From positions 64,921,001 through 64,985,000 of the forward strand of contig CM027384.1 in assembly GCA_015680905.1 (NCBI GenBank): 64,000 nucleotides of DNA. Reading direction: 5' to 3'. Position numbers and translations under genes: made by a program. The notes beneath the pieces were generated by a model. The model saw nothing but the letters and a program-made list of their open reading frames with translations. It made no database searches and was not told where the DNA came from. The stretch comes from Coptis chinensis (taxonomy: Eukaryota; Streptophyta; Magnoliopsida; Ranunculales; Ranunculaceae). This document shows positions 25,114-55,171 of the stretch, in pieces; within the stretch, counting starts at the first letter, position 1, and each line of letters opens with the position of its first letter.

Positions 25114-25321
25114 CTAGAAAATAACATAAGATATTTATTGCCAATTATTATTAATCAATGATATCCTATTGCTACAGGTTGTATCTTGATAAATTTGGGC
25201 AGTGCAGTAATAAAACATTAAATTGGCGCACTTTATATTCCTGCCCAGCACAATCATTTGTTCCTACAGCTATTTTATGCACCTCCAAAATGGCCTGGAA
25301 GTGACACGTGAAAGTATATAT

Positions 25322-28030: not shown

Positions 28031-28043
28031 CCGCCCCCTCTTT
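28031..28043 (-). other. Polypurine tract of the Gypsy element
   Basis: On the minus strand AAAGAGGGGGCGG stands immediately before the 3' LTR, where plus-strand DNA synthesis would be primed. Confidence 0.8.
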
Positions 28044-29642: not shown

Positions 29643-29643
29643 G

Positions 29644-31862
29644 ATGACGATCACAGACCTAGTGAGGTGGAAAGAAGGTGACAGATACAGCGACTACCTG
29701 GAACCGCGTCGATGGTCGCTTAAGGAAATAAAAAAAATACTAGGACTCGAGAAATTTGAAATGGAGGAAGTGTACAAATTTGAAACGAAAGTCGAAGAAG
29801 ATGAAGTAGTAATGGTTTACACACAATTAAATTGCAGGAGTGCAATTCCGTTGAGCAAAGAAATAGCGCAATTACTGGAGTGGTGGCAAATTGCACCGGG
29901 ACAAAGCGCCAATATCGTTCGTTAATCTTTACGAGAGCGCACCGTTTACAAAATGAATTTAACAGAAGGTTCGGGGCTCAAGAAATCTTCGCGTTGATAC
30001 GATCGAAAGCCATACTGACGAAAGGGTACATAAAATTTGAAGTTAAATTCAAGGATTCAAACAGAAGTTTTAAAGGGTTCCCAAAAGTATACACCGGATG
30101 GGATAGATTTCAATACCGCTTGCGAGGGAAGTGGAATCCGACAGAGTTTAAGGTGCCGAACAAATTTCGAGGTAAGCCAAAACATAATTATTGGAAATTG
30201 TACTATGAGTAAACTGTTGACTAACACGAGTTATTTTGTGTCTAACAGAAAACGCGAGTACACTACCAGATATTGAATTGGACAAGGAAGTGGAGAACAA
30301 CCTTCGTTTCTTCTTTCATGAATGTTCTGACGAAAGATTGGTAGATCTGAGCTACTTTGATGATATTGTTGATTTCCGACACTATGGGGGTATCGAACAA
30401 CGGCCCGATAATTCCATGGCAACACATAGTGAAATGGCGAAGAAGAATAAGAGTCTCAGAAATGCAATATTTGGCAGCGATAGCGATAGTGAAAAAGAAA
30501 ATGGAACGGAATTAACACAGCGAGAACTAGTGCTGAGTTTGCCAAGCAAAAAAAGTGAATTGTACAAAAGAAGATGTGCCACAAGAAAACAGGCGAACGG
30601 AGACCAAGAGAGACAACCAACGTTACAATGTATGATGCCTCGAGGGGCGAGACTACAATGCACCCAAACATCCCAGACGAAATATAATACATACTTGACA
30701 TCAAGAGGAAAAGGTATGTGCCCGTAAAAACATAGATATGTAAAAGTGTGGTGAAATGTAATATCTCGTTCTCGTTTGGTATATACAAGAAAAGAATGAA
30801 ATAGTGATACTTACAAAAGATAGTGCAGCCAAGAACACAAAGTCGATGAAAGAAAATAAACGGCAAAGCAAAATCACGGGGAGCAAAGAATCCAACAACC
30901 AGCGGCAAAATCTTGTCGGTGTAATATTACTCATGGAGGAAAACCACGAATCACATTATGATAAAGTTGACCTTTGATTTTACTATTGCGTTAGGGCGGT
31001 AAAAGAAATTTGTGTCCAACACTAAACCGATGAAAATTGCGGATGAAGCGAGATGTTCAAGCTTGGAAGGCGAAGTGAAGGGATCGCCGGGATTACGCCA
31101 ATGGAAGGGCTCGAAAAATATCAAAAATGTGACCGAATCACGGAGAACATCGGAGAATATGACGAGCAATGTCAATGATCTTCGATAGTATAAACCAGGT
31201 ATGACAATATTATTTTTATCGGTTATTGCAAACTTGTGTTTAAGTCTGAAAGATGATGAAATCAGATTTTTTTTTTTTTTTTTTTTTTTGATTAAAACGC
31301 GGCGTGAATGCGACAAAAAGAAATTCATGAAAAAAAGTCGCGAAGAAAAATATCGTTCATAATGAAGTCAATGCCTTAAAAAGAGATAGAAAAGTGAAGA
31401 TACTCAACCAAAATTGGAAGAGGCAAACAAAGCGTTGAGCGGAACCATCAGAGAGTTAGAAGACGAAAACAAAAACTTAACCGAGCGGACGGAAGAAGCA
31501 GAGGAGAGATCGTAGTACGAAGAATTTGGGAAAGCCTGTGAGATAATGGAGGAACACAAACACTTAAAAGCAGATGTGATAGAATTGAAGTCACTCGTGG
31601 TGACCAAAGATCGGGAACTTAAACGCGTCGCATAAAAAGAGGTAGAAAAATAACAAGCGAATGACGATTTAAACGAAGCGGCTCGGCCAAGATCACGTGC
31701 AAATGGCACACTGTGAATCGTCCGTAAGACAACTGACAGAGACTTTAATAGAAACGGGCGATGAACTAGAACGTGAGAAGATGAATTACAAGGATTTGTA
31801 CGAGTTGTATATGCGAAAAGTTGGGAAGAAACCATTGGATTTTCCCAAACCAATGATCATGT
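29644..31862 (+). pseudogene. Antisense ORF (aORF) of the Tat-type Gypsy element, with introns
   Basis: This frame runs opposite to gag-pol, between integrase and the 3' LTR, where several Tat elements carry an antisense gene. It opens at 29644 (MTITDLVRWKEGDRYSDYL). A frame change near 29915 leads to FNRRFGAQEIFALIRSK and GFPKVYTGWDRFQYRLRGKW. An intron with clean borders (30172-30248) joins in phase to ENASTLPDIELDKE and an acidic linker (SDSDSEKENG). Another probable donor is at 30714. Downstream, 31400-31660 reads as a glutamate-rich coiled coil (EEANKALSGTIRELEDEN; EEHKHLKADVIELKSL) broken by TAG/TAA stops. The architecture, a globular part followed by a coiled coil, is seen directly; its function is unknown. 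It is degraded here. Confidence 0.72.
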
Positions 31863-32699
31863 GATTGCGAGTATGTAATATCGTAAAGCTAAAAATTCTT
31901 TTTATGAAAATAAAAATAAAGTATGTGTTGGCTATTGAATATCATTGTGATGTCAGATAACATACCTGTATAAAACTTAGTGTTGTTGATTTATGAATGT
32001 AAAAGAACGAGACGCCCCCATGTAGAGAGAAAAACCTCCCAATATAGAACGATTGGAGAAAGTTATTGAAAGGTAAAGGGGACATGATCGTCCTCCATGA
32101 ACCTAGCTATTCAGGTGTTAAAATATTTGTACCGAGCGTGAAGCCGCGGCGACAACTGTTGGGTTGTCCGCAGGTTCAAAGTCGTCACCGTGCTGCTTTG
32201 GGACCAAACTAAAACACAACGCCATTGCCTTAGTAGTGGAATTAGCATGGATATTGTATTGTGGGAGTATTCCAATAATTGTTCGAGCAAGAATAACCAT
32301 CTTATTGACTTCGATTCCGTCAAGTAGGCATGAATCGACTTACTTGAACTGAAAAAGGCATAATATGAATGACCTCCATTAGAATGAGCGTTAATGAATG
32401 ACATTATTGAAAGTAAAAAAGTATAGGCGAATAGAGAAATGTAAAATGACAACCAAACTAAGAGAATGGAAGTTGAATGCCTTTATTGATGGATAACATA
32501 GAGCGAACTACATAGATGTATAGATTTGTTATTGATGGAGTAATGTAAAATTGCAAAAATTTCCTAACGGTAAAACTTGCGAAGGTGGTAAGCATTCCAT
32601 GGCTTCTCTATTATTCTTCCGAAATAGTGCGGGAGGAAATATGACCCCTTAGATCTTTGGGCGATCTATGATGTAGGGTCCTTGCCAATTTTCCCCAAA

Positions 32700-34000
32700 C
32701 TTTCCTGATTCTATAAGCTTTGGGTTTCTACAAAGAACCCGGTCTTGAGAACAAAAAGACTTAGGGCCGGATCTTCTTGTCGTAGTTCCGTTTCATGTCG
32801 ACTTGATACTTAATAAGCTGTTGTAGTCCCTCGAATCTAACCTCATCAATAAGAGCTTTTGACCGAGCCAAAGTAGTGTCATTGGAACCTATTTCAACCG
32901 CGAATCGACCGAGATGTACTTGGAAATCAGTTAAGTAGGTAAGACTGCCACACCATATGCAAGGTTAAAAGGTGATAATGCAGTTGAATATTTTGGCGTT
33001 GTCCTATAAGCCCACAAGAGCGGTGGTAACTCCTTGACCTAATTTCCTTTGCGCCCGTCAAAACGCCTCTTTAGGTTGGCCAAAATCACCTTATTGGTGG
33101 CCGACCCTGCCATTGGCTTGCGGATGATAATAAGGTGCGGAGAAGTTATGCCGTATCTTCAAATTAGCCTGAGAACTAACGAATTTCTTCAAAGACATCG
33201 AATTGTTTACCATTATCCGATACAAGTGCGGGGATGCCAAAACGACAAACAATATTTCTCCACAAAACATTTTGACATTGGAAGCATGGATTTGGACCAA
33301 AGGCTTTGCTTCTACCCATTTAGGAAAAAGTGTCGGTTGCCACAAGAAGGAATCATATACTACCCGGAGCTTTAGGTAAAGGGCCAATAATGTCTAAACC
33401 CCACTTGGCAAATGGCCATGGGCTTAGCATGGGATGCAACTTCGATGCCGGGGATTTTACTCATATTGTCGTGCTTTTGGCATGGCTCACACCTCTCGGA
33501 TAGGTGTTTTGCATCCTTTTGCATCTCGGCCACCAATAGCCCCCTGTGTCATAGCCTTATGAGCTAAACTGCGCCCCATGGAGTGGCTTCCGCATAAGCC
33601 GGAGTGAATCTCTTCCAAAACTTGAAGTCCTTCCTGTTTTGAGAGGCATCGTAACATAGGGTTTAAGTCCGAGCCTTTGCAATATAAGTGCAAACTTCCG
33701 TCAGTAACAGATATCACCAAAAACTTCCATGCATCGCGTTTGATTCTTTCAGCGAATTTTGGTTCTGGCGGAAGTGAAGAAACTTGCAAGTAGTGGATAT
33801 AAGGAAGACGCCAATCTTGTGCATCGGAGATCATCACTAGCTCTGATAGTATCATATCGGGAACTTCAGGACTATCATCTGCTTCATGTACCAACTCACT
33901 ATCTGTTTCGGGAGCGAATTTAGGAGGAACAAATGGATCTACAGATTCTAATGGAAGATCCAAAATATGGTCATGTTGTGAATTTTCCATCTCCCTTTTC
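32700..34000 (-). pseudogene. Gypsy integrase region
   Basis: On the minus strand the N-terminal zinc-binding block appears as EIHSGLCGSHSMGRSLAHK (about 33560-33620) followed by CEPCQKH. Core pieces include APYYHPQANGRV (about 33095-33130), the typical start of the third acidic motif region. The C-terminal part extends to about 32770. Several stops and frame changes interrupt the core, and parts of the catalytic DDE triad cannot be placed with confidence. Confidence 0.85.
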
Positions 34001-34049
34001 CGCTTCCGAGTCATCATTGGTGCGATTATACGTGGGTCGTATTTCGCTG

Positions 34050-34910
34050 TTGCGTACAAGCAAAACAAGTAATTGCTTTCATGTACATACAAGTCATGCA
34101 ATTCTTTTTCGGTAAAGTCAATGCTTGGCTCTTTTTGGAACTCCACAGTGATGTATCTTGACTCTTCGCTTCTAACGGCCGCGGATAGATAAGCCAATGA
34201 ATCGGCATGGCGTATGTCATTTCGGTCTTTGAGTGATAGAGATGCTATCAAATTGTCGAGCAAGGCTATGTATCAAACCAAGATAAGCCGCCATACGGTC
34301 ATCTCTTGCTTCAAAAGACCCGCCAAACCGATTGGCTACAAAGGCGAGAATCCGTGTATAACCGGAGCTTTCGCCCCCGGTTTCAAAGTCGTTCTCAAGG
34401 CACAAACGGCAGCCTCATACTCGGCCGTTATTTGAAGCGGGAAGCCAAAGTCGCAATTTCTCAATCTTCTCTCTGCGGGTTTAACAAAAACGCATCCAAT
34501 TCCGGACCAGTTTTATTATGGGAGCCATCTGAATAAACAATCCATAGGTCAATTGGATTAGGAATTGCGTTTACAAGTTGGTCTTCGTCGCCCCCGGTTA
34601 TTGGTGACGAGAATGTCTTCCATAGATTCTTCTTGGCGCAAGAAATCGTCAATAGGAGAATCATCAATCGGAAAAATCAGCTATCAAAGAAGCTAGAGCA
34701 TGTCCTTTTTCGTAATGCGACTTTCAAAGACAATGCTATATGCACTAAGATAACTTTCCCATTCGGCTAATCTGCTTGATTCTTGTGCATTCTGAAAAGA
34801 TCTTGCGTAAAGGACACTTTCGGTATAAACTCGACCAACCTCCCCGAAGTATGGTTTTAACCGACGAAAATGCATGAACCAATGCAAGTGCCATTTTTCC
34901 ATCTTTGAAT
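34050..34910 (-). pseudogene. Gypsy RNase H region
   Basis: Minus-strand pieces read HFRRLKPYFGEV (about 34850), WIVYSDGSHNKTGPELDAFL (34500-34560, the first RNase H acidic motif), then EARDDRMAAYLGLIHSLARQF (about 34255-34315) and DIRHADSLAYLSAAV (about 34170-34215). This order fits plant Gypsy RNase H. The pieces lie in different frames, so the domain is disrupted. Confidence 0.85.
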
Positions 34911-35401
34911 AACGAGACTCGGCTCCGATTAACGTCTTCTTCGATAAAAAGGCGGGTCTACCATCATCGACAAAAGAACGACACTAACAACTTAAGTTGT
35001 AGGTGCTAGGTACATGCCAATCGGTTGACCCGTTGAAGGACTTGTCAATATAGGAGGATGACCAAGTATTTCTTCACCGTTGCAATGCCATCTCACAATC
35101 AATGTTCCAAGTTGCGCCCCTTTAAAGTCCGGAAGAAGGGATGACAACGATCGGAATATTTAGAAATAAATCTATGAAGAAGCGGCAAACCGACCCGATA
35201 AGCCGTTGAATTTCCTTCTTATTTTTTGGTGATGACATATCAATAACGCGCGTATCGATCGAGATTAGCCTCAATACCTCTACGAGTCATGAGGTATCCC
35301 GAAATTTTCGGAAGAAAAAGGCCAAAAGAACATTTGGCGGGATTGAGTCTCATGTTATACTTGTTAAGCCTATCAAAACAAGTTGAAGATCGGAAAGATG
35401 A

Positions 35402-35962
35402 TCACCGGTAAAAAGCCGATTTAACGACTATATCATCAATATAAGCCTCCATTATTATCCCCAACAGATCGGAAAAAATTATATTGACAAGCTTTTGGTA
35501 GGTTGCACCGGCATTTTTCAGACCAAAAGGCATAATAGTGTAACAGAAAATGCCTTGGTCGGTAATGAAAGCGGTGAACTCTTGGTCATCAACATTCAAA
35601 GAGATCTGGTAGTACCCTGAAGAAACATCCATGAAAGATAGGCGTTGGAATCCCGCAGTGGCATCCACTAGTTCGGAAATTCGTGGCAATGGATACGGAT
35701 GAATCGGACAAGCTGCGTTAAGGTTTGTAAAGTCAATACAAATTCCGATTTGTCCGTTCTTTTTTGGCATTGCGACGACATTAGCAAGCCATTTTGGGTA
35801 AGTAACTCGTCGGATAAAGTTAACCGCAAGTAGCTTATCAATCTCCTCTTTAACTTTGAGCTTCCGATCAGGTGCCATTCTTCTTGGTTTTTGGTGAACT
35901 GGCCTGAAACTTGGATCAATGTCAAGTTTATGACAGGCAACAGAAGGGTCTATTCCCGGCAT
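35402..35962 (-). pseudogene. Gypsy reverse transcriptase
   Basis: A continuous 186-codon frame carries Tat-type reverse transcriptase motifs in order: EEIDKLLAVNFIRRVTYPKW, NGQIGICIDFTNLNAACP, PLPRISELVDATAGFQRLSFMD (first catalytic Asp), GLKNAGATYQK, and the catalytic YIDDIVVKS box. This is the best preserved part of the element. It ends at a stop soon after the YIDD box, so the thumb and connection are in other frames. Confidence 0.93.
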
Positions 35963-35998
35963 TTCCTCAATTTTCCAAGCGAAGATACGCTTATTTTG

Positions 35999-37066
35999 CT
36001 ATAAAAGGGAAACCAACTCTTGTTGTTTTACGCTCGAAAGTTCAACAGAAATAAAAGTGGTTTCTTCTGCTGAATCTCCTACTTGTACTTCCAAAAGTCG
36101 ATCCACTGTCGGCGGCCCTTGCACATGAGCCTCAATATTATAGATGGAGGGCACGCCGCTTGGTAACTGTAACTTGGGCAGGGCACTTGCAAGGATCGTA
36201 TTACCTCGAACTTCAGATTTTTTATAGTCATCCATTGCTTTGTCATGACAGGAATAGGCAGATACCTGGTCACTACGAACCTTGCAAATATGCCCAGAGA
36301 ATGGGAACTTGACACACTGATGAAATGTGGAGACTACAGCCCCCATGGAATGTATCCAATCTCTGCCCAAAATTGCGTTATAGTGGGATCGACAGTCCAT
36401 CAATAAGAAATCGAGCTCAACTTCTTTGTTCATTAATTTGATTGGTAAGGTAATTCTTCCAACCGCTGAAGATGTTGTCCCATCAAAACCGATGATAGGA
36501 TTGTCTTTGGCGATGATCATACCCTCGCGAAGTTGCATCTGAGAATAGCATCCACTGAAAATGGCCGAGGTGGCCCCCCCGTCGATCATTACCCGTTGAA
36601 CACGAGAAGCACCTATAGACACAGAAATTATAACTGCGTCATAGTGAGGGTGATATACACCAAGGAGATCATCATCAGTGAATTGGAGGGGCTCTTCTTC
36701 CGAAGTCTCAGTCTGGATTCCTTTGATAAAATCGACTTTGTTGATACGGTTAAATTCACCAACATAACTAACTTTCAAACGCTTTTGATTCTTACTCTGA
36801 CTTTTGGAAAGAGACTCAACATGAGAATGGGAAACATTAATGACATGCTCATAAGTTGCAGCAACTGCCTGTTGAGAGTTTTTAATAAGATATTCATTTA
36901 AAAGTCCTTTCTCCACTAATTTCTGAATCCGACCCCGGAGAGAGCGACAAAGTTCTGTCTCATGGCCATAGTCATTATGGAATTTACACCACAAAGCTTT
37001 GTCCCTTATCGCTTTGGTATCTTCTGAAAGTGGATAAGGCGGGGAAAGAAGATTCCCACTTTTCAA
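35999..37066 (-). pseudogene. Gypsy gag C-terminal zinc-finger and aspartic protease
   Basis: A 355-codon frame. Near its start CKFHNDYGHETELC forms a CCHC-like knuckle. The protease region carries VMIDGGATSAIFS with the active-site Asp (about 36570) and later AILGRDWIHSMGAV, as in plant Gypsy proteases. The frame is open but flanked by breaks, so it is a remnant of a longer gag-pol. Confidence 0.9.
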
Positions 37067-37070
37067 CTTC

Positions 37071-37748
37071 TCATATATAACAGATTCCCACTAATTTCAG
37101 GTAGAGTTTTTCCATCACGATTGAAATTGACTTGCTTCTGATTGTCATTCTTTCCATCGTTATGTTGTTGATCTGACTGTCCTTGCTTCGGCTTAAAATT
37201 CTTGCTGTCAGAAAAATCTTTGCTCCGAATATCTTTGTCCCTTGCTGCTTTCGCCGATAGGTTCTCCTCGATACGGAGATGTGTTGTTCAGCCCTAACAT
37301 ACAGATCGTATCGAGTTTTAGGGACATCTTTAATTAGAGAGTGGTAAAGATCCCTTACAATGAAGTTCGAACTTCTGTCACTTTCATAATATAATGCTTC
37401 TTTAAAGGCGAAAAGAAGCATCCCATCAGAAACTTCTGGAACATCTGCTGCTGCCTTTCAGAACCTAGTAACAAAAGTACGTAACTTCTCGTCACGTTGT
37501 TGCTTGATGTTCAGAAGTGAGTCGACATCCTTTGGCGTCTTGCAATTGTGGCGGAAACGATTAACAAACTGATTTTCTAGTTCATTGAATTGGTGAATTG
37601 ATCTTGAAGGCAACTCACTAAACCAAATAACGCTTTCTCCCTTTAGAGTCGATGGAAAGAGCTTACATATGAGCGGATCATCTCCACCCCATAACACCAA
37701 CTTATTTTTGAACGATAGAACATGCAAGCCAGGATCTCCTTCCGACTC
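37071..37748 (-). pseudogene. Gypsy gag, capsid part downstream of the solo LTR
   Basis: Minus-strand capsid sequence reads ESEGDPGLHVLSFKNKL, then KLFPSTLKGESVIWFSELPS, FNELENQFVNRF and LLNIKQQRDEKLRTFV, the usual retrotransposon gag block. It continues the frame that stops at 38857 (FKLYD) on the other side of the solo LTR; the 5-bp duplication ATCAT marks the join. Confidence 0.9.
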
Positions 37749-37769
37749 ATCATTGTTCTGGCCCCCACA

Positions 37770-38140
37770 AATGTGGCCCAATATAAGCCCAATTCAATAC
37801 AAGCCCATGCTCAGAGCCCAACTATAAACAAGCCCACGCTCAGAACCCAACTATAAACAAGCCCACGCTCAGAGCCCATGCTCAGAGCCCAACTATAAAC
37901 AAGCCCACGCTCAGAGCCCATGCTCAGAGCCCAACTATAAACAAGCCCATGCTCAGAGCCCAACTATAAACAAACCCACGCTCAGAGCCCAACTATAAAC
38001 AAGCCCACGCTTAGAGCCCAACTATAAACAAGCCCATGCTCAGAGCTTAACTATAAACAAGCCCACGCTCAGAGCCCAACTATAAACAAGCCCATGCTCA
38101 GAGCTTATCTATGAAAAAGCCCATGCTCAAAGCCTACATT
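37770..38140. repeat. Minisatellite: AAGCCCA(T/C)GCTCAGAGCCCAACTATAAAC
   Basis: About a dozen head-to-tail units of roughly 29 bases, with occasional shorter partial units, form a block within the solo LTR. Confidence 0.92.
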
Positions 38141-38149
38141 CCACGAGCT

Positions 38150-38632
38150 GACAGATGTCCCGCCAGTTCTCCACTTCATCCCACGAACGGTTCTCCCCCC
38201 GCCTCCTAAACTTCATCCCACGAAATGACGGTTCTCGCCGCCAGATTCTCCAACTTCATCCCACGAGCGATTCTCCTCCCCGGTTCTCCAACTTCATCCT
38301 ACGAAATGACGGATGTCCCCCCATTCTCGACTTCATCCTACGAAATGACAGATGTCCCGCGCCAGTTCTCAACTTTATCCCACGAGTTCAGTTCTCCCCC
38401 CAGTTCTCCAACTTCATCCCACGAGCTGACAGATGTCCCGCCAATTCTCCAACTTCATCCCACGAGCTGACAGTTCTCCCGCCAGTTCTCGACTTCATTC
38501 CACGAAATGGATGTCCCCCGGTTCTCCACTTCATCCCACGAAATGACAGTTATCCCCCAAACTCTCAACTTCATCCCATGATTGGGCCGGTTCTCCCGCC
38601 CGGTTCTCAACTTCATCCCACGATTGGAATAT
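38150..38632. repeat. Minisatellite: TTCTCCACTTCATCCCACGAAATGAC
   Basis: Roughly 14 imperfect units of 26-40 bases share the core CTTCATCCCACGA followed by a variable GATGTCCC/TTCTCCC spacer. The block gives a long proline-rich open frame on the plus strand (38155-38718) that is an artefact of the repeat. Confidence 0.9.
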
Positions 38633-38856
38633 TGGAGAACGAGGAAGTAACTATCACCAATGCTACCTATAAAATCCAACCTTCGTCATTTTTCCAGAAC
38701 TACGCAATTGAGACTTGATCCCAAGCAATATCTTTGGGTACGTAGGCAACTTCAAAACCGAAGTCCAGTCTCATCTTTCCCCAATCACCATCTCCAAAAA
38801 ACATTACTTCCAACCCTCAACTGGTGTGTTTTGGCAAATCTTGCTGAAACAATCAT

Positions 38857-40027
38857 AAAGTTTAAAATCGGGTTGTTTGAAGTCGGGATGGTGGTAAGCT
38901 TCTTGAATGTCGACCGAAAACTTATCAAGTACGCCATCATTGACTGTCAAGTTTTTCATTCTTACATTCCTTGACTCTCTATCATAAAGTTCTTTTGCAA
39001 TCAACTCTTCCAGCTGTTGTTCTGTTAGAGTTAAAGTATTGGCTCGAACAACTGGACGCCCCCGATCGTGCCCATGTGGAGAAGGATACCTTCCATTATC
39101 TCTTATTGGAGTTAGAGATCTTTGGCGGTATGCACGATCAGCTCCTACCGGTGATTGTCTTTGTCTATCCCTGTAACCAGCCTGTCTAGGCCGGTAGTCA
39201 CCCTTGGCCGGGTGGTCGGAATAATTATACCACTTCTCCATGTTTTGTTGCTCTTGTCTGGGATGCCTGCCTTCCCAGTCGTGTCGGACATATTTCGGAT
39301 GGCGGTCTTCCCTGAAACTGCTTCTCAGAGGTAAATCTTCCCTTTGAGATCGGACATGTCTAGGGTAGTAGTTATCCCCGCCAATCCGATTCTCCCCATA
39401 AAATGCGGGTAATAGGGTCATTACTCCTAGAAGCGTGCACTAGTTGATTGTGCTTGAGAAATAGCACGCGTTCTTTGAGGACGGCGAAGTGGATCGTCAA
39501 GACGGTCCCATACACTGGAATGGCCTGCATCCCTTCGTGGTCGCCTTGATGTTGTTGAATTTGCAACATCATCCACCGGCCTTTGCCTCTTTGCCAGCTT
39601 CCTTCTCAAGTTCCTGTTTAAATTTTTGACTCGTCGTAACTCCCGCTCAACCGTATTAGGGGTGAATTGGCAGTTACTATCACCTTTTCCGCTAGTTGGC
39701 GTGAGAGTAATGTCCACGTCCATATCCATGTCAACTGAAGGATCGACATGGACGGACGGCGGCGGACCGCATGGAGGACTACCGACTTGTCGATTTTCTT
39801 GTTGTAAAGCAACATTGTTAAGGGTGGCGGCACTTGTCTTGCGCCTTTTACGGAGGCGAGGCGGTGGCGGTTCTTATTTCTTCTGGATGTTGAGAATTGA
39901 TCCTACTATTAGGAGCAACTTGATTGTTCAACGGTTCATGCATCGGCCGATTTGAATTTCGAGGGTTGCGATTCTTGTTAGTAGGAGGAATATGTTGACT
40001 ATTTGGTCTGCTTCTCGTGCTTACCAT
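38857..40027 (-). pseudogene. Gypsy gag N-terminal part
   Basis: The minus-strand gag likely starts at 40027 (MVSTRSRPNSQHIPP), the common start of Tat gag proteins, and runs through charged Arg-rich sequence (ERELRRVKNLNRNLRRKL; several RQR/RDR blocks) to PDFKLYD at 38857, where the solo LTR interrupts it. Frame changes occur near 39840 and 39420. Confidence 0.85.
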
Positions 40028-40059
40028 CTTGATTGTTTCACGTGATAATGAATTCTCTG

Positions 40060-40077
40060 TCCCCACAGACGGCGCCA
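40060..40077 (-). other. Primer-binding site of the Gypsy element
   Basis: On the minus strand TGGCGCCGTCTGTGGGGA follows the 5' LTR after a short spacer. This is the binding-site form usual in Tat-lineage elements. Confidence 0.85.
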
Positions 40078-40081
40078 ATTA

Positions 40082-40556
40082 TGTTTTGGCAATAAACTGC
40101 TTCAACACAACGAGAGCAATGGTAAAGAACACACTAATAAACAGAGAAATTTGATGTTGGGGGAGATGAAACTGAACCAAATAATGGCTGCCTACGTACC
40201 CAAGATCTGTTCTCTAGGGATCAAGTTTCCACGTAGTTCCTTATGAAAAATAGTTTGATATTTATAGAGGTAGAGTAGAGAGTCCTTGTAGCTCAAGTAA
40301 TCTTGTATCTTGAGTAATTGTGATAGAGTATAACTGTCAACTGATAACTATCTCTTTGATAAGAAATGAATCTGGACATAAATCAACGTATATTAGTGGC
40401 AAGCCATGTGGCTAAGGTTCAGCCTTAGACACATGAGTTAATGGGCCTGTACATTGATCCATGATATTGCGAATTGGGCTTTATCCCTGTTGATTAAATG
40501 AATAAAATAGAGACCCCTACTAATGGACGTTTGCCACGTAGGTGGAGGTCGAAACA
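40082..40556 (-). repeat. 5' LTR of the Gypsy element
   Basis: Right copy of the 475-bp LTR, flanked on the right by the target duplication TATAC. Confidence 0.95.
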
Positions 40557-42469: not shown

Positions 42470-42489
42470 TGACACTACAAGAAAAATGA

Positions 42490-42625
42490 CTTTTGGCCAT
42501 AGGTACAGATCGATTAGCTTTAGCCACGGTTATAGGCTGTTACATAATACCCACGGGCTTTAGCCATGGCTAAAACTTTTGATAGGTGTGGCTAAATTTC
42601 TGTGTAGTTTGAGTTTAATTGGGTT
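42490..42625. repeat. Left subterminal repeats of the CACTA element
   Basis: Short repeated motifs such as TAGCCACGG, TAGCCATGG and the inverted GTGGCTAAA sit within 150 bases of the terminus, where transposase-binding repeats are normally found. Confidence 0.8.
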
Positions 42626-44266
42626 TTTGGCCACAGTCATGTTTCTATCTCTATTAACCGTTGATATAGACCTGTGTATTTCTTATCCGTTGATGTAATG
42701 AAAATTAGATGGAGCGCAAAATGAACCAGCCCAAAAATTCTACCTAATGTAAACCGCCCAACAAATACTCTCTGTCTCGGTTTCCTTCCCCTCTCCTCTC
42801 TCACGCAGTGACACAGACACGCCACCCCCCTCTCTCTCAGGTAACCCTTTCTCTATTTTTTTTTTCTTCTACTAATCTCACTTCGAACATCTCTAAATTG
42901 TTATCTTTTATAGAAACACTTCATCTTTAATCACTAGGTAATTGTTTTTCGTCTTTCCCCTCATGTCTCTCTATCCCATCTCACAATTCTTTCTTTTTAA
43001 GAGTTAGTGTTTACCAATTTCGATAAAAATGTAGTGTTTGTAAGGTTTGTTTTGTTAAAATTTAGTTTAAATGAAATAATATTACTCATGGTTTATGATA
43101 TTTGTTGTGAACAGGTCCGGATTATTGTTTTTTTTCATTTACATCAAGGTGAGTTTTTCTCCCATCTCTGGTTTGGTGTTAACTTGAAATGAGTTTTTTC
43201 TAAAAAAGTTGAAATTTGTTTTGTTTTACTTCTCTTGGTTATAGATACTGTTAGTACCGATTCTATCACCAAATGGGGTTGTGTTATTGTTATATGTTTG
43301 TCCTAATTCTAAGTTAAAATGGGTTTGTGTTGGTCGTTTGTGTTTTTTAAGTATAGCTAAGTTCAATAAAATCACATTTGTTTGGTATATGACTTACTAG
43401 ATGATAGATATTTGCTACTTGTTGACGTGATGTACTTGCATTATGTTCTCTATTTATTATATCTGTCTGCCTAAGGTGTAGTTCAGAATGTTAATTGTAG
43501 TAAGTTGTAATATTGATTAGCTAAGTGTTGGGCATTTTTATGGAATTCAAATCAATGTTTTGTAAGGTCAAATATACCTATTTGTTATTCATTTTAGAAG
43601 AAATAATTTAATATATTTAATATTTTATTATATTGTAAGTGAGAGTGTCTCACATACAAATTCATCATGATTCTAAGCACCCTAAAAATCCATTTGTCGA
43701 TACCAAGATTAGTAACTTGGGTGCTATTGTTGTTATTGATACTTCTTCTAAACCAAAGCCTAGTGTTCGCGGTAGTCTCAAGAAGTAATCGTTTTAATAT
43801 CGAGTCTATTGTTGAAGTGTGTGGTAGTTGGTAGAAGTGAGTAGGAGAGCCCTTACTTGCTTCTTTTTATTTTTATGCTCTTACTCTATATTATACTGAA
43901 TGCAAGTTAAGATATTGCTATTGGGTTAACTCAAATATGCTGCTAATGTGGGCGGTATAATTATATTTCTTCTAGATAATATCCTACTTGGTTGCATATG
44001 ATATCATCTTTGTTGTTATTGTTATTTATCTAGTTTCAATTTATTTTTTTAAGTGAGAATGTAGTTTGTTTTTTTTCGTATGCATGCCTCAATCGATCCA
44101 TTTTTTTGTGTGCTTCCAATGTATTTAAATTTATGGGTGCAACTAGGTTAGATTGATTGTTGGATGTAGTACTTGTGCTATTTTAGTCTCTCCCCAGCGT
44201 GGAGTTCGTTATTTACTTATGTGGTGGTCTATTATGTGTATGGTTTACCTGCCATTGTATTTTCAG
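42626..44266. other. CACTA internal DNA, no recognised gene
   Basis: T-rich sequence with possible splice-like tracts. A short coding-like run near 43640-43790 (NPFVDTKISNLGAIVVIDTSS) is not recognised and could be another captured exon. Confidence 0.4.
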
Positions 44267-45401
44267 CTAAGCAGTTAAAATCGGATTTAATCGGCAATTA
44301 ATCGGTGAGTAATCGTATATCGGGACTGGAGCGAGATGTTTTCGACTGATTTATTGTTTAGTACTCAGTTAGCGATATATTCGGTCGTATCGACCGATAA
44401 CACTGATTTATCGGGCCAACTGAGAATAAAACAGCGTCGATATTATCTGAACCCAACTTGATTACTTGAATTAGAGAAAAAAAAAAAAAAAAAAAAAAAA
44501 AAACCCCCACAAACTCACGAAGTAGTGAAGTACTGATTATTGAACACTTCCAATTCCAGAGCTTGTCTTCATCTCCTCAGTCCTCTCTCCCCTCTTCAAC
44601 TATGAAGTGATCAAGTAAACATGTATTATTTTTTGTCCTTCTTTATTCTTTGACTCTTTGTTTCCTCTTTTCCTTTCTCCCTTATTTTCTTTTGTCTTTT
44701 CCATTGTTGTTTGTTTGTTGTAGGGTAGTGTTGTTTGTTTGTAGGGTAGATATTATTATATTTTGATGGTCATGTGCTATGCATACTCTGCTGCACCTTA
44801 CAGTAGAGGTGTGAAACCAAAGCTTAAATCGGAGAAGAAGAACGAATAATTAATTTAAACCTAAACAATAAGGGGCGACCATTAAAAGAACACAATTGGA
44901 ATATAATGCTTGTTGCTCGGATGTGTGGGGGCAATGGTAATGCAATAATCTCGTCCAGTTTGATGAATTATATCGATGTTCATTTGGTACTCCATCTTTT
45001 GCTCCTGTAGATTGGAATGCATTTAGTTGGTCTTCTGGGAGGACCATGTGCAAAAGTGCAGAACTATTGGAGTTGTTACCAAACTACTGATAACCAATAT
45101 ATTGCTTTGTAGTAGTATTTCCAGCATAGCTACTTGTATTTGTAATGACTAATGAACTTAGACTTAAAGTCGTTAAACTCTTCTACCATATAAAAAAAAA
45201 AAAAAAAAACTTGTGTTTTATTAAAATGTTTCTTACTTATTGGACCTAATATTGTTGTTTATATTCTATATTTCAAAGGTATAATTGGAATTTTGTATAT
45301 AATATTATATATCGATCCAACCGATTAAATCACCGATTAACCGATTAATCGCATATCGCTCCTAGACCAATTACTAGTGAAAACCGATTTTAACTGCTTA
45401 G
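44267..45401. mobile_element. hAT-type non-autonomous element nested in the CACTA element
   Basis: Exact inverted ends CTAAGCAGTTAAAATCGG and CCGATTTTAACTGCTTAG are flanked by the exact 8-bp duplication ATTTTCAG (44259-44266 and 45402-45409). The 1,135-bp interior includes an A run of about 27 bases near 44477-44503 and CCGATTAA words near both ends but no transposase. Confidence 0.92.
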
Positions 45402-45439
45402 ATTTTCAGCTCTAACTATTTTTGATATATTCGTATTGC

Positions 45440-47690
45440 AAGAACTACAATATGGAGGGGTTTGGGGTGATAGATAAAAGTTAGATTGATCTACCAAAAG
45501 AGGACGATCGTTTTATTCATGGTGTTAATCAATTTGTACAATTTACAAGGGATAATTATCACCACAAGGATGTGATCCCATGTCCATGCGATAACTGTAG
45601 AAATAGGGGTCGAGCACTAACCCATGAGGTGGTCACATTGCATTGTTACCAAAAAGGCTTCTACAAACAATATACATTTTGGAGAATGCATGGAGAAACA
45701 AGTCAGCCACCAAGTGTGGCATTTGAAAGAGGTGGAAGGTCAAATTCCACTAATTTTAAGGTGGGAGGGGACTTCCCCTTTTTTTAGGAGAATGTTGCAT
45801 TCAGTACCGTCGTAGAAAAACTTGACGGTGATAACTTAGATGTTGTTATTGAACAATGTTCAACAGATGGTGCTTGAGGAATAGTTGAGGAAGATCCTAT
45901 AGTTGAGGAAAAACCTGACACAATTGAGTCCAATAATTTTCGTGAGGCTTTGAGTCCCTTATATCCTGATTGTGAGGACTTTACAGTTTTGAAATTTGTT
46001 ATCAAGTTGTTTCGGTTAAAGGTTACACATGGGTGGACAGACAAGATTTTTATGGGACTCCTCGAATTACTTCGTGTGGCTTTTCCATGTGACAACAAGA
46101 CTCCGGAGAATACTTATAATGCATAAAAATTAATAAAAGAGTTGGGCCTTAAATATGAGAAAATTGATGCTTGCTCGAATGATTGCATGCTATTTTGGAG
46201 AGATGATGATTGGAGGGATACTTGTACTACATGTGGAGCGTCGAGGTACAAATATGCTGATATCGAACAAAGGAAGAAACATATTAGGATTCTAGCAAAG
46301 ATACTTCGATACTTTCCAATTACGGAGAGGTTAAAGAGGTTGTATAGTGTACCATGGGTGGCAAAGGAGATGTGTTGGCACTCGAAAAATCGATTGAAAG
46401 GTGGAGAGATGGGGCATCCAGTTGACTCATCTAATTGGAAATTAATTGATCGGAAGTATAAGGACTTTTTACCTGAAGCTCGTAATGTTTGATTAGGACT
46501 ACCAACAGATGGTTTCAATCCTTTTAGAACTTGTGGCACATTATACAGCTCTTGGCCTGTAATGTGTGTTACCTATAACCTTTCTCCGTGGCTTTGCATG
46601 AAACCCAAATTTACCATGCTCTCTTTACTCATCAAAGGCCCACGACAACCAGGAAAGGATATCGACATATATTTTCATCCTCTTGTTCGTGAATTGCAAT
46701 CTTTGTGGAATACCAGGGTGAATGTGAAGGACTTAAACAGAGGCAAGATGCTCAATATGCGCACAGTTTTGTTATGGACTATCCATGACTTTCCTGCGTT
46801 AGGTAACATATCTGGTTGTAGAACCCATGGAAAATATGTTTGTCCCATTTATGGTCCAAATACCTCCTCATTGAGACTCCAACATGGCCAGAAATTTGCT
46901 TGCATGGATAGTAGACGATTCTTGCCCTCGTCGGATGCTAGTAGGATGGACACTAGACCAAGTACCTTTAACAAGACTGAAGAGCTTAGAGAACAGCCTT
47001 TGAGATTGACCGGACTGCAAGTTGAACAAATGACATAGAATCTGAAAGTGCAATGGGGTAAGGGCAAAGAGAAGAAAAGGGGGAATGGAAAAAGGAAAAA
47101 AAAAGGGAAGGGCGGTAGAAAACAAAATGAGGACAACGGGGATGGGACATGCTTTTTTAAATAGTCGATATTATTTAGGTTTCCATATTGGGCAGAGCTT
47201 CTTATCCGTCATAACTTGGACGCTATGCACATTGAAAAAAATGTTTGTGAACTCCTGATTGCTATGATGTTGAACACAAAAGGAAAAACAAAAGATAACG
47301 CCAATGCACGCAAAGATTTGCAACTTCTTGGGATTAAAAGGAAGTATTGGTTGAGTGATCAAAATGGTAAGAAGGTTATGAAGCTTGGGGTGTTTTGGCT
47401 TCGAGTGGAGGAGAAAAATTGTTCCTTATGAGCTTAAGAGATCTCAAAGTACCCGTTGGGTTTAGTGGTAACTGGAAGAATATTGTCCAAGGCGGTGCGA
47501 AGGATTTGAGTGGAATGAAGTCTCATGATTATCACATTTTGATGCAACATTTGCTTCCAATGCTGATCCAACATGCATATCGAGATAGGAAGGAAGTCCG
47601 ACATGTGATCTTGAGTATTTGCACATTTGTTTGTGCGTTATGTTCTAGGAGACTTAATGTTGACACTTTACATGCACTTGAGAGGGGTAT
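45440..47690 (+). pseudogene. CACTA transposase (TnpD/transposase-21 type) remnant
   Basis: The N-terminal transposase-associated domain reads IDLPKEDDRFIHGVNQFV and IPCPCDNCRNRG...HCYQKGFYKQYTFWRMHGE (about 45485-45700). Downstream are ISKLLKELGLKYEKIDACSNDCMLFW-like sequence (46130-46200), TCGASRYKY, RYFPITERLKRLYS, GHPVDSSNWKLIDRKY, FNPFRT-CGT-YSSWPV, the CGGCRTHGK-like GCRTHGKYVCP (about 46813) and LIRHNLDAMHIEKNVCELL (47200-47260). It then reaches a C-terminal block GGAKDLSGMKSHDYHILMQH (about 47490-47545). Stops (for example TAG at 45482) and shifts break it. The frame stops near 47690, where captured sequence replaces the rest. Confidence 0.92.
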
Positions 47691-47954
47691 CATTTTGTTT
47701 TTATTCAATGTAATACTTGTCTTATTTTGCTAATAACATTGTATTGAATGTTTGCTTTCTCTATTTTGGTAACCCATTTTTAACTCCACCAATGCAAGTA
47801 AACTTTACGTTTGCATTTGCATTGTCGGTCCCAAGCTCGGAAAAAGGAGGAGGGAGAAGTGGTGTATAATATGTTTTTCTTTGTATTTAATTTTGTTTAT
47901 TTTTCTCTGGGCTGTAGGGAAGAGCTACCAAGAGGTACAAGGGCAACCAATATA

Positions 47955-49282
47955 CAAAGCGTGACTGATGTTGAGTATTTATATTCTGAGAAGCCACCTA
48001 CTTGGGTATGTAAAAGCATGCATGCATTTTTCCCATGATGATTGTTACAATGTTTTCACAAGAAGTGCATTTTATGAGTATGGCATTGCAGGGATATGCA
48101 ACTTCAAAGACACTGGCAGAGTAGACAACTTGGAAATATGCTGAAGAAAACAAGATATACCTTATCACTGTTATCCCTTCGCTAATGGCAGGTCTATCTA
48201 TCACTCCTAATGTCCCTAGTAGCATCTGCCTGGCCATGTCATTGATCATAGGTCTGCATTCCAATCCAGTAGACTTGTGTGCTCATATATGATTTCCTTT
48301 TTGTAGTTTAACTCTATCAAATCCACAAATACGAATATCTAACATGTTAGGTTAAGTAGCTGATCGAGCATTACTATTCCAATGGATTTACATAGGATAA
48401 ACTTGTTAAAAAAATAAGTAGTTCAAAAATTCTGAGGAAACAAATTCTGAAATTAAAACGACATTGTTCTCTATTCGAATGATTGATATTGCAGGAAATG
48501 AATTTATGATAAATGGTTTGAAAGGGATGCAAATTCTCTCTGGCTCAATCTCATTGTCACATGTTGAGGATGTTGTTAGAGCACACATCTTTCTAGCAGA
48601 GGAGGAATCAGCTTCAGGTCGATATATTTGTTCTCCTATCAATACCAATTTTCATGAGCTTGCAAAGTTTCTGAACAAAACATATCCACAATATAAGGTT
48701 CCTACTGAGTAATCTACTTTCCATAGAACATCCATTTATTTGAACATTTATTCATACAAAGTAAATGAAAACAAGTTCATGGAACGCAAACTTATAAGAA
48801 CCTTCCGGCCAATTCAACCAATATTGGTACCTATCTTGACCAACCAGGTTATGTGAAACCGTACAATTTAGTTCATTATTGGTCCAAACATATAAAACAC
48901 TGAAACACACACTGGAAATGTGCATCACATTCTTTAGTTGACTGTCTAAAGCAAAGCAAGTGATCAATTGGTTAAGCGATTCCAACATTAGGTAATGGTT
49001 CAACTTGATTGACATACACAACCACAGTGTGCGAAGTGAAAAGTTCAGGCTCACTTTTGGCTTGTTTGTAGTTTCTCTAGTGTGAGATTGCAGTAGTATC
49101 ATTTCATTATCATTGTCTAAATTGTGATATTTTGCAGCTTTGGAGATTTTTCTGCAAACGCAAAGCTGATTCTCTCCTCAGAGAAGCTTACTAAAGAAAG
49201 CTTCAGCTTCAAGTATGGCATTGAAGAAATTTACGACCAATCTATTGAGTATTTCAAGAAAGTTGGGCCACTGCAAGAGTGA
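47955..49282 (+). pseudogene. Captured anthocyanidin reductase gene (3' four exons)
   Basis: The intact enzyme is an NADPH-dependent short-chain reductase that makes flavan-3-ols for condensed tannins. Here only its C-terminal part is present, with introns: end of an exon to 48005 (VTDVEYLYSEKPPTW), then 48092-48251, 48495-48708 and 49138-49282, all with GT..AG borders and consistent phases. Recognisable blocks: GYATSKTLAE with the catalytic Tyr and Lys of the YxxxK motif, ENKIYLITVIPSLMAG, NGLKGMQILSGSISLSHVED, AHIFLAEEESASGRYIC and SFKYGIEEIYDQSIEYF, ending at its own stop. An in-frame TAG at 48122-48124 (after TLAE) kills it, and the N-terminal nucleotide-binding exons are absent. It lies inside a CACTA element, so it was captured as genomic DNA. 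Confidence 0.93.
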
Positions 49283-49610
49283 AGAGACTTCAAGTGTTAA
49301 CTGTTATGAGACCGTAAGGAGAAGCTGGGATTTGATTGATGATATTAGATCCAGCGGCAGCGGTTTGAAGGAACTTAGCCAGAAGTTCAAATCTTGTAGG
49401 TAATGTTATAAATTACACAAGTATTATGCATTAAATACTGTTCTCATTCTTTTGTATCTATTATACTTCCCATGCTAATTGCTTTCAATCTGCTGATTTT
49501 ATTTCTTTTCTTCCTAGCCTTTTGAACTAGGAAGACACTGCAGTGGAAAAGATATGCAGTGCTATAGATGCAATGTCCGCATATTATGATGTTCTTAGCA
49601 TAATATTTGC
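49283..49610 (+). pseudogene. Captured fragment of a family S28 serine carboxypeptidase (Pro-X carboxypeptidase-like)
   Basis: Thirteen bases after the anthocyanidin reductase stop, a new coding-like stretch (about 49296-49399) reads NCYETVRRSWDLIDD and GLKELSQKFKSC. This pattern is found in plant lysosomal Pro-X carboxypeptidase-like proteins of family S28 (NCYxTIxxSWxxID...GLxxLSxKFxTC). It ends in a plausible donor (TGTAG|GTAATG). After an intron a second stretch near 49517-49615 reads VEKICSAIDAMSAYYDVLSIIFAD, consistent with the next S28 region, but with an in-frame stop. None of the catalytic Ser, Asp or His regions is present. Assignment is from remembered family patterns, so the first stretch is more certain than the second. 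Confidence 0.68.
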
Positions 49611-50414
49611 AGATGATGTGTTTTAGATTTTTAAAGTTAAATATAAATATTATATGTGTTCTCTAAGACAATCACTATATATACACTGATTTCTCAACTT
49701 ATTATTCTTCATCGTTGTAGCATAAAGTTTGGTAATTGGTTAATGAGTATTTATTGAATACTGGTTTTAGGTTGGCCCTTCCCTGTTCTCTTGTGCATCA
49801 GCTTCCCTTTCTAGATCTTTCAATGGTGTTTCTTAGGGCAAAGAAAGCTCATGTGGGAATGATAGCTTTGCTTTGACATTAAGCAGCTGTGTTTTCAGGA
49901 ATTAGTGTTTAGTTGGTGTAAGGATTTATTTTATTTTATTTTTTATTTTTTATTTTTTTTGGGTTTTCCTGAGATTGTTCCTCATTATTTATATCCTTTC
50001 CCCAATGAGCAAAAGTTTATATTAATAGAATTAAACATCTTATAAATCTTCCATGCTACAATAAATTGTATATGAGAGTCGGCTGTTATTCGTAGATGCT
50101 GTATTTTTGCTCGTAGGACAAGAAGATATTCTCGTGTTCATGCTTATACTCAATCGAGTATTTTCTACCTCCCCAAGTTCTCAGTACTAAAGAAAGATAG
50201 TAATACCTAGCAAGAGTAAGCGTATGTTGTGCTGTTTGGGTGACATAACTCTTTGAAAGACATGTTACTAACTAATATTGTGTTTGCTCTATCTCGCAGG
50301 GTGTAGATCTGAGATGTGTACAACACCAATAGAAGTTACATCTTCTCAATTGATTGCAAGTGAGATCTTCCCTTCTGGTGTGGCGAAAGCCCTCCTCTAC
50401 CCCGAGGTGGGCAA

Positions 50415-50525
50415 ATGGACTCATCGAAAATAGGACCGGCCCCAAAATGGGACAACGTATTAAATATCTACAACCTAACAGAGGTGAAGGAAGCCTCCCC
50501 AGTAACTGATCTCCAGCGCCTAGAG
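50415..50525 (+). other. Unrecognised exon-like segment in the CACTA element
   Basis: A 37-codon open stretch (MDSSKIGPAPKWDNVLNI...VTDLQRLE) ends exactly at a possible splice donor (GAG|GTTTGA). Its composition is more protein-like than the flanks. I do not recognise the family. It may be a third captured gene piece. Confidence 0.35.
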
Positions 50526-51029
50526 GTTTGACATTTTTATTTAGTCTCCTTTACTTGCTCCAAGATTTGGTAATCAATTCCAATTATAAAACTGAAGTTA
50601 CAATAGGGCACCCTTCACTGGTTTTCTCTTAGGCGTCTGCTCAACACAGATATGTTTGACCTGACCTCAAATTCATCCAGTATAAGCACTTGATGCTCTT
50701 TTACCATTTTTTGTCCAAAGCACTTGGAATTACATAAGTTAGCTTCGTGTCGGGGACTTCACTCTTAATTCACGTGACATCCTAATATTTATGTTATGGC
50801 ATGAAGCTACCTTAGTATCCTACCATGTTGATTACGCTAGTATGTGCTTTCACTTGTATAAAGTATGATGTCAATTAAATTGTTAAAAGTAGTCTGACTC
50901 GACCCTTGGCGAAACCCCTGCAAAGATTCTTATAGGTTTGATTGAAATGATAGAATTTTGTATGACCTGCAGGTGTGATGCGAATTGTATGAATTTAGTA
51001 TGGTGCCATAATCAATTTTTTTTATCCAA

Positions 51030-51375
51030 TTCAATACATTTGCCACGGCCATAAACTGTGGCTAAACTTTAGATACAGTCCAATGAAAGACATTTGCCAC
51101 GGCCTAGACCTGTGGCCAAATTATAGATCCAGTCCACAAAAGGTAGTGGGCACGGGTCGTGTGAGCATTAGCCACGGTTTAGTGCTGTGGCAAATGGGAA
51201 AATTCACCACGGCCCATGTAACGGTTTATAACCGTGGCATAAAATGAAGCTTTACCCACAGTCTTTAGCCGTGGCCAAAGATTAGCAATAGGCGCATTGG
51301 CAACGGTCGTGTAACGGCTTAAAACCGTGGCAAAAAGGTCTTTAGCCATGGTCGATGACTATGGCAAATGCTCAG
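51030..51375. repeat. Right subterminal repeats of the CACTA element
   Basis: Multiple copies of TTGCCACGGCC...GTGGC and inverted GCCGTGGCC words lie within 360 bases of the right terminus, mirroring the left end. Confidence 0.88.
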
Positions 51376-51391
51376 TATTCTTGTAGTGTGA

Positions 51392-53358: not shown

Positions 53359-53973
53359 TCAACCAAAAGTCTTCATAATGGAAAAACCAACCTAGTTGAC
53401 TGGAGATCCCAAGATCTAGGTTCAAAGGGCCAACTGAATTATGTCTGTGACTCAGTTAGCACTGGAGAGTAATAATATACTCTAACCCATTCTTATATAA
53501 GACAGTGCATATCTGCCGCTAAACCCAGGATAAGTCAAGCTTTTAATGATTTACTATATCTTGGAAAGTTATGTTATCCAAGTGGAGTATTGGAGGATAC
53601 TCTTTATAGAAATCACCTATGTGAGTGTGAAGTGGGGCCGCTTCTATGAGAATTTTAAGGCAAATGTCTCAAAAGCACTCTGTGAAACCAAGAAGTGTTC
53701 AAGGTCAAAATAAACATAAACGTGAGAACCAACAGTATTCAAGAAGGTATTGCGTGAAGATGATTGTCTAGGTTTATATAAACGACTAACAGTTCAAAGA
53801 CATTAATTGAAGTCTATTGATCGTCCAATTAAATCCGATCTGATCGGCTTTCACTAAGGCAAGTTCAAGGCCTCCCATGCTACTTGACCTGATGCGGTAT
53901 CTTTTCATTTGTAAAAAAACAGAAATCCGATGTTTATGATAGAAGAAGCCAAATTTTCATTCATGTGGGGGAT
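53359..53973. other. Copia element 2: 3' untranslated region
   Basis: Non-coding sequence between the pol stop and the 3' LTR. It ends in the purine tract ATGTGGGGGATT. Confidence 0.8.
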
Positions 53974-55171
53974 TGTTAGAAAAATAGATTTGCACAAATC
54001 CATTGAGATATGAATGAGTAATTTGTCTCTCAAGTTACCCCACTTGAGATGAAATGAGTTTCTCTTGAACAGTACGTAAAATGAGAAAAACCTTTTCGAA
54101 AGGGTGCATTGGTTCGAAACAGTGCATTATGCCAGAAAGGTGCGACCTTTCGAAATATGCACTGGTTCGAAACAGTGTATCATGTCGAAAAGGTGTGACT
54201 TTTCGAAATAGGCACTGGTTTGAAACAGTGCTTTATGCCAAAATGGTGTATCTTTTCGAAACATGTGACTTTTCAAAGAGTTGCTTACTTTTTTCCAAGA
54301 GTCACTGTGTTGTTTCGAAGAGACACCACTCACCTATAAATAATGGATGAATTTGGAGAGAAAGACATGCCAGATCACACAGAGTTCTGATCTTTCTCTT
54401 CTCCCTCTGTTTTTAGTCAAATACTATGTTGTGTTCGCTGATTCTATAGAATTGAAGTGCTAGCTTTCTATAGAAGGGAATTTGTTCTATCTTGGGAGAC
54501 AGTTTCCCATCAATCTTCAAGCACCGTGAGGGGGAAAATCTTTCTTAAAGACATAGTGTATCTACACTAGGCTCGGATTTAACTAAGAAGTACAAGACAC
54601 TTAGAGCATCCTTAGGTGAGATACTATCCTAGCATCAAACACAAAATTTCCAAAACACCAAAAAAACACCAAACCAAACACCAAATCAGCTAAAATTTGG
54701 TTCCAGTTTTAGTGTTGTATCAAATCTCTCTCTTGCGGTTTTGGAAAAACCGCGCGGTTTTTCGAACACCGCATGAGCTTGGGCTAGACAGTGGGCTTCT
54801 ATGGCGTGATTTTGCGAAAATCGCGCAAGAGATTTGGAAAGAGAAGAAATAAGAAAGTTGATGTGTGACAAACCGTGCGGTTTCTGGAAAACCGCGTAGG
54901 CTTGGGCTTTTAAGATGGGCTTCAGTGGCGCGGTTTTGAGAAAGCCGCATAGACTATATGGCGCGGTTTATCCAAAACCACGTAATTTGATGTCTAATAT
55001 TTGATATTTATCGTGAAGTTGGTTGGTATTTTTTTGGTTTAATATTTGGTTTGGTTAAAAAATTTGGTGTTTTATTGGTTTCTCTCCTAAAAATGTTATT
55101 ATAAAACAAAAGATTTGTATAGCTTGATAATTGGTAAAGAACAAGTACAATTAAATTGTATATTCCTAACA
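53974..55171 (+). repeat. 3' LTR of Copia element 2, interrupted by a MITE
   Basis: Without the MITE and its 3-bp duplication the LTR is 700 bp, matching the 702-bp 5' LTR. It shares the GGTTCGAAACAGTG tandem units and the CTATAAATAATGG box near 54335. Confidence 0.93.
54604..55098. mobile_element. Tourist-like (PIF/Harbinger) MITE, 495 bp
   Basis: The left end GAGCATCCTTAGGTGAGA pairs imperfectly with the right end TCTCTCCTAAAAATGTTA, and TTA duplications flank it (54601-54603 and 55099-55101). It is absent from the 5' LTR of the same Copia element, which gives the empty site directly. The interior contains repeated GCGCGGTTTT / AAAACCGCG words. Confidence 0.9.

Follow-up and report, generated by a model that had tools for sequence, protein, structure and literature searches.

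A decayed CACTA element of Coptis chinensis that probably captured DNA segments of three unrelated host genes

A stretch of 64,000 nucleotides of the Coptis chinensis genome (contig CM027384.1, positions 64,921,001 to 64,985,000; hereafter the window) was analysed. Positions 42473–51388 of the window are very probably (probability of roughly 0.85) a decayed, non-autonomous CACTA transposon that has taken up segments of three unrelated host genes at the DNA level, namely, anthocyanidin reductase (ANR), a peptidase of family S28 and an uncharacterised conserved gene, annotated in Coptis as IFM89_033616 and called gene 3 below. The element is a further example of the known class of gene-capturing CACTA transposons, not a new process; new here is that it belongs to a module-sharing CACTA family.

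Ends, transposase remnant and captured segments

The word CACTACAAG is present at 42473–42481 on the forward strand and at 51380–51388 on the reverse strand, with no further match in the window. The element starts with CACTACAAG and ends with CTTGTAGTG; the 9-bp ends match, and the 31-nt terminal arms are 81% complementary. With 0.47 matches expected by chance, two were reached in 8 of 100 shuffles, and the terminal word alone is therefore weak evidence. The ends and the duplication at this locus are proven by the TGA pair and the restored Copia frame: flank reading found TGA on both sides of the element (42470–42472 and 51389–51391), and the flanks, joined by script minus one TGA, give an open reverse-transcriptase frame of a Copia retrotransposon, the empty site. 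Subterminal repeats of the TTAGCCACGG type are crowded at both ends. The left end on the forward strand, located by word and repeat search, comprises the terminal inverted repeat and the adjoining subterminal repeats (42473–42580) and is common to the related element L024 and to the class C element described below; the right end, also on the forward strand, occupies 50926–51388, subterminal repeats followed by the inverted repeat at 51380–51388. A preliminary description, made from the sequence without database searches, had recognised a CACTA element by its termini and the TGA duplication, and this identity is borne out by the ends, the restored Copia frame, the subterminal repeats and the transposase.

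The transposase is represented on the forward strand by the transposase-associated domain PF13963 (45485–45784, Pfam 1.2e-17), an interrupted tnp2 domain PF02992 (46403–47032, Pfam 2e-63) and the tnp2 remainder (47165–47687), which is truncated at 47687 and continues beyond this point in the related element L036. Seven stops were found in the frame 45485–47431, and any past movement would have used transposase supplied from elsewhere. The strict definition of Pack-CACTA elements, no transposase sequence, does not apply to an element with PF02992 at 2e-63; since the remnant is kept, the element is not strictly a Pack-CACTA. The captured genes had been thought to replace the 3' half of the transposase; at 47687, however, the transposase joins not captured DNA but a 276-bp leader (47687–47962, forward strand), which comparison with relatives showed to be common to related ANR-bearing elements, and the 3' part of the transposase appears to have been lost by internal deletion.

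The ANR segment occupies 47963–49293 on the forward strand and includes exons 47963–48005, 48092–48251, 48495–48708 and 49138–49282, its own stop codon (49280–49282) and then 11 bp of 3' UTR. Its three introns (48006–48091, 48252–48494 and 48709–49137) each have GT..AG borders, and their retention bears out the capture at the DNA level proposed previously. When spliced, the segment matches grape ANR 2rh8 with an E value of 6.3e-88 over residues 153–337; it is 91% identical to Coptis IFM89_008702, the other 119 proteins among the best 120 of 379 matches reaching at most 76%. A complete ANR reading frame is absent, since only approximately residues 153–337 (grape numbering) are encoded and the second captured exon contains a premature stop, TAG for AAG.

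The boundaries 47963 and 49293 are set by chromosomal ANR copies, those on C9 and at C7:0.78 Mb, which align over exactly this interval (matches of 95.4 and 94.8%). The copy at C7:1.06 Mb spans it in two pieces, of 91 and 95%. Intron-containing ANR exons had been noted at 47955–49282; the ANR identity stands, and the start of the segment is moved by 8 bp to 47963. No stops were found in the matched exons of the C9 gene (L021), while both C7 copies (L022 and L023) keep the exon order with frameshifts or stops, and among the three loci only the C9 gene looks open. The two near-complete disabled copies on C7 are 0.27 Mb apart.

The S28 segment (49291–49733, forward strand) is represented by an exon to 49399, an intron (49400–49517) and a shortened next exon. 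In the search against the whole of Pfam, the S28 match has an E value of 0.0019, below the curated cut-off, which is still strong for a family named in advance; related S28 copies that extend further upstream in the profile (125–205) pass the cut-off, with stops inside. The S28 piece, previously reported as an exon at 49296–49399, is thus real, but the segment is longer and has an intron. It was found at 12 places besides the window. Among these, L056 (C2:84.37 Mb) and L057 (C9:53.17 Mb) share more downstream flank with one another than with the transposon-type copies used for comparison, and the two are the leading candidates for S28 loci of the chromosomes. The S28 profile search gave no match at either locus, so they do not look like intact genes. 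An S28 gene at C2:111.73 Mb was rejected as the parent, the fetched sequence giving no DNA match, and the search for S28 homologs in the protein database returned six candidates, none reaching an E value of 10.

The third segment (49730–50925, forward strand) matches the gene on C3 (7.64 Mb) in exon and intron at 91–92%. It contains exons 50300–50525, which is frameshifted, and 50815–50925; the middle exon, kept in L036 and in the C3 gene, was lost in a deletion of about 230 bp. The protein IFM89_033616, uncharacterised but conserved in plants, has relatives in Amborella, dicots and grasses (20 matched). The first residues of its annotation correspond to the sequence that precedes the splice acceptor at 50299 in the element, and by its own record they likewise precede the acceptor, in an apparent intron. 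The C-terminus of IFM89_033616 also differs from those of the relatives read, and the gene model looks wrong. A warning for annotation follows from an element that partly reads as real ANR exons and from an annotated protein that starts in an apparent intron.

Three genes were thus found where two, perhaps three, unrelated genes had been thought to be fused end to end, gene 3 being matched by the C3 gene. Genome search for the parental genes placed the source of ANR on C9 and that of gene 3 on C3, different chromosomes. The preliminary description had named adjacency of the reductase and S28 genes at a parental locus as the finding that would speak against capture; no S28 match was found near any ANR locus. 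In the S28 profile search, the closest match to the C9 ANR gene is at a distance of 3.4 Mb and is one more copy of the repeated S28 piece; on C7, about 30 Mb separate the ANR copies from the closest match. That a CACTA element jumped into or beside an existing gene cluster, or that the assembly joined unrelated pieces, is accordingly very improbable. The locus is known from a single assembly, but all three pieces are inside the ends and are flanked by the duplication and the intact Copia frame, the leader–ANR and gene 3–right-end joins recur at other loci, the ANR and gene 3 sources and the S28 matches are as far apart as stated, and the genome searches found no parental locus at which ANR and S28 are neighbours.

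Related elements, joins and order of capture

The leader together with the ANR piece was found in at least 30 other places, 3 longer and 27 shorter with a deletion fusion; 15 of the 30 were read in sequence. Among the matches scored, a right end on the same strand is present within 10 kb downstream in 22 of the 30 and absent from the remaining 8. For C4:59124292, counted among the 22, the right end counted is that of a neighbour, its own right end adjoining the ANR piece in L024. Search with the right end alone gave 183 first-look candidates, the best 40 of which represent 40 places, the window included.

The commoner, shorter type of leader–ANR element is named class C. A full member of 9,986 bp has its own AAC duplication and contains a piece of an argonaute PIWI domain (PF02171 at 1.4e-4, below the cut-off; Arabidopsis AGO10, 7sva, at 2.4e-6), which is also present in L060. 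The argonaute piece retains an intron in the class C relatives L032/L040 (C4:53818822–53828807) and L060. This piece resembles the AGO4 clade, and a further stretch of the full class C member, for which the database search gave no match, resembles a sodium/calcium exchanger. Members of another type, class S (L047–L054), contain an S28 segment and an exon of a calcium-dependent protein kinase, read in L050 (9vhu, 9.2e-16); their S28 piece groups apart from that of the window, and tnp2 sequence is present upstream in L054. Among the matches scored, a right end is no more than 5 kb away at 3 of 12 S28 places, L036 excluded (on C93, C6 and C9, the last being the copy at C9:69872094).

The joins of the element were read base by base against the source sequences on both sides. 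Overlaps were found at the transposase–leader join (GGT), the ANR–S28 join (CAA, judged against the two C7 ANR copies, the C9 copy differing by one base), the S28–gene 3 join (TGGT) and the internal deletion of gene 3 (GTA). The gap of 13 bases described earlier after ANR does not exist: 11 bases are the ANR 3' UTR, and the two segments abut with the CAA overlap.

Leader and ANR meet at the identical base in the element, L024, L025 and L026, which makes a single capture of ANR most likely, the join having been deleted from the shorter copies. The gene 3–right-end join is at the identical base in the element, L036, L044 and the class C element. The S28 segment of the element groups with that of L036 (support 0.96), apart from ten other aligned S28 copies. 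Among the best 40 of 65 candidates, no other element showed the ANR–S28 join.

With overlaps of 3–4 bp at four joins, the pieces may have been added successively in faulty repair of breaks inside the element. The union of gene 3 with the right end would have come early; S28 would have been acquired in a lineage common to the element and L036, and ANR in a lineage common to the small ANR-bearing elements; the present element would then have come to hold both ANR and S28–gene 3, losing the 3' part of its transposase. Late extension of the ANR piece by gene copying was rejected, K against the C9 gene being 0.043, 0.047 and 0.047 in three parts of the segment. Against the two C7 copies, K is slightly lower in the first part (0.032–0.035 vs 0.047–0.052).

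It is also possible, if rather doubtful, that one ancestral CACTA element captured ANR, S28 and gene 3, that the other members are its deletion derivatives and that the element of the window is closest to the ancestor. This is consistent with L024 and L026, in which the ANR end joins right-end sequence sharing TCGA with an ANR intron in a deletion-like manner, and with L036, in which S28 and gene 3 are present with a deletion across their join. However, L036 retains tnp2 past 47687 and has neither leader nor ANR before S28, the class C element has other gene pieces at the S28 position, and the ANR–S28 join is confined to the present element within the candidate set given above.

Decay, methylation footprint and possible effects

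Compared with the C9 gene, the captured ANR segment has a K of 0.048 in exons and 0.044 in introns, and its coding changes comprise 16 nonsynonymous, 9 synonymous and 1 stop. Among the 43 ANR changes private to the element, 24 are C>T or G>A; 18 of these were found at 136 CG/CHG sites and 6 at 365 CHH sites (Fisher 7e-7). Since exon K is like intron K and this footprint is present, the copy looks silenced and non-coding. The gene 3 segments of the relatives L036 and L043 bear the footprint (p 0.0007 and 0.0017, respectively), and none was detected at the C3 locus of gene 3 (p 0.51). The C9 ANR gene has 14 private changes, of which two are of the C>T type, both CHG (nominal p 0.04), and each C7 copy has 8 private changes (p 0.11 and 0.37).

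From these substitutions, the captured DNA looks as if it was methylated and unselected, with disagreement between the ANR and gene 3 segments of the element on the footprint. We propose that the element no longer yields a useful protein and that its effect today, if any, is most likely that of methylated repeat DNA.

Several points weigh against the history and decay proposed for the element. Nine of the 26 coding changes are synonymous, compared with about 23% of possible changes, and weak past constraint is possible, the count including changes on the gene's own side. The gene 3 segment of the element is without the footprint (3/93 CG/CHG vs 5/317 CHH, p 0.39), as is that of the related L044 (p 0.39). 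No intact S28 parent was pinned, the two candidate loci being those without an S28 profile match. The order of capture depends on few shared junctions, a single larger ancestor with all three pieces, followed by deletions, has the standing given above, and overlaps of 3–4 bp at single joins can be due to chance.

Chimeric or antisense transcripts with an effect on the parental reductase gene had been suggested. All three captured pieces are in the same sense as the transposase; transcription from the transposase side would therefore yield sense and not antisense RNA, and an antisense effect from that side is ruled out. A chimeric protein across 49282/49296 finds no support, the ANR frame ending at its own stop (49280–49282) and the S28 frame being different.

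An action in trans, in which small RNAs from the dispersed ANR pieces would silence the live ANR gene or modulate it, and with it condensed-tannin synthesis, appears unlikely. In its favour, 573 of 1310 24-base words of the matching C9 segment are unchanged in the element or in 15 related loci, the captured ANR bears the CG/CHG-type footprint, both C>T-type changes among the 14 private to the C9 gene are CHG, and a review reports that gene fragments captured in maize serve as reservoirs of siRNA (PMC13317346). However, two changes are an insufficient basis for methylation of the C9 gene, and the gene 3 segment of the element does not bear the footprint. Even less probable is a role of the family as a shuffling platform that reassorts ANR, S28, gene 3, argonaute and kinase pieces, with small RNAs, from its dozens of ANR copies and from the argonaute exons of some members, that would tune tannin synthesis or blunt the silencing of the host. 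In rice CACTA elements, miR820 targets OsDRM2 (PMC3459959); the argonaute piece of the Coptis family recalls these elements.

Known gene-capturing elements and nested insertions

Gene-capturing CACTA elements have been described in soybean (PMC1947982), morning glory (PMC5105172), grapevine (PMC2528002), Chenopodium (PMC8978399) and wheat (PMC4290129), and Pack-CACTA elements in Arabidopsis (PMC8903248); a proposed route of capture via neighbouring elements is summarised in PMC13317346. Similar to soybean Tgm-Express1 (PMC1947982), the Coptis element has CACTA ends and intron and exon pieces of several unrelated genes, including one for an unknown protein. Tgm-Express1 contains pieces of five genes in 5.7 kb within an intron of the F3H (wp) gene and is transcribed, whereas the Coptis element contains pieces of three genes and a broken transposase inside a Copia retrotransposon. 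Elements of the Tpn1 family of Japanese morning glory (PMC5105172) are likewise large and mostly non-autonomous, with interiors swapped for host genic DNA and ends kept; species and captured genes are different, and activity is documented for Tpn1.

As in Vincent and TAT of wheat chromosome 3B (PMC4290129), the captured segments are multi-copy and seem to have passed from one family to another. Transcription and constraint are reported for some of the wheat captures, whereas the Coptis element has a stop in ANR, a frameshift in gene 3 and ANR exons as diverged as the introns. In grapevine Cactavine-5 (PMC2528002), a transposase reading frame is also followed downstream by captured host coding sequence, but the captured PPR-protein gene is opposite to the transposase, while the Coptis pieces are all sense. 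Pack-CACTA or Pack-TYPE elements of Arabidopsis, rice and maize (PMC8903248) have comparable ends, a duplication and captured coding DNA, sometimes from several loci; unlike them, the Coptis element keeps a clear transposase remnant. In the literature on Coptis transposable elements and CACTA, no title bearing on this element was found, and no title on ANR capture by CACTA was present among the matches listed (20 of 32).

The present data give a join-by-join record of a plant DNA transposon acquiring a chimera of unrelated genes, with sources known for ANR and gene 3 and with one captured piece, ANR, recurring in the genome as counted above. Since joins and sources are documented, the order of capture and the origin of the joins in repair are testable from sequence.

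The host Copia retrotransposon (25320–55169, forward strand, ends approximate) has long terminal repeats (LTRs) at about 25320–26021 and 53972–54603 plus 55099–55169, with a divergence of K 0.110. The CACTA element interrupts it and is therefore younger. The CACTA element itself contains a nested, non-autonomous hAT-like insertion (44267–45401) with inverted ends CTAAGCAGTTAAAATCGG and an 8-bp duplication ATTTTCAG at 44259–44266 and 45402–45409; the insertion is missing from the related elements L024, L032 and L044. Two other insertions were observed in the same Copia: a stretch of about 13 kb between 475-bp direct repeats (27556–40556, K 0.032), which is probably a second LTR retrotransposon, and an insertion of about 495 bp (54604–55098), which splits the 3' LTR.

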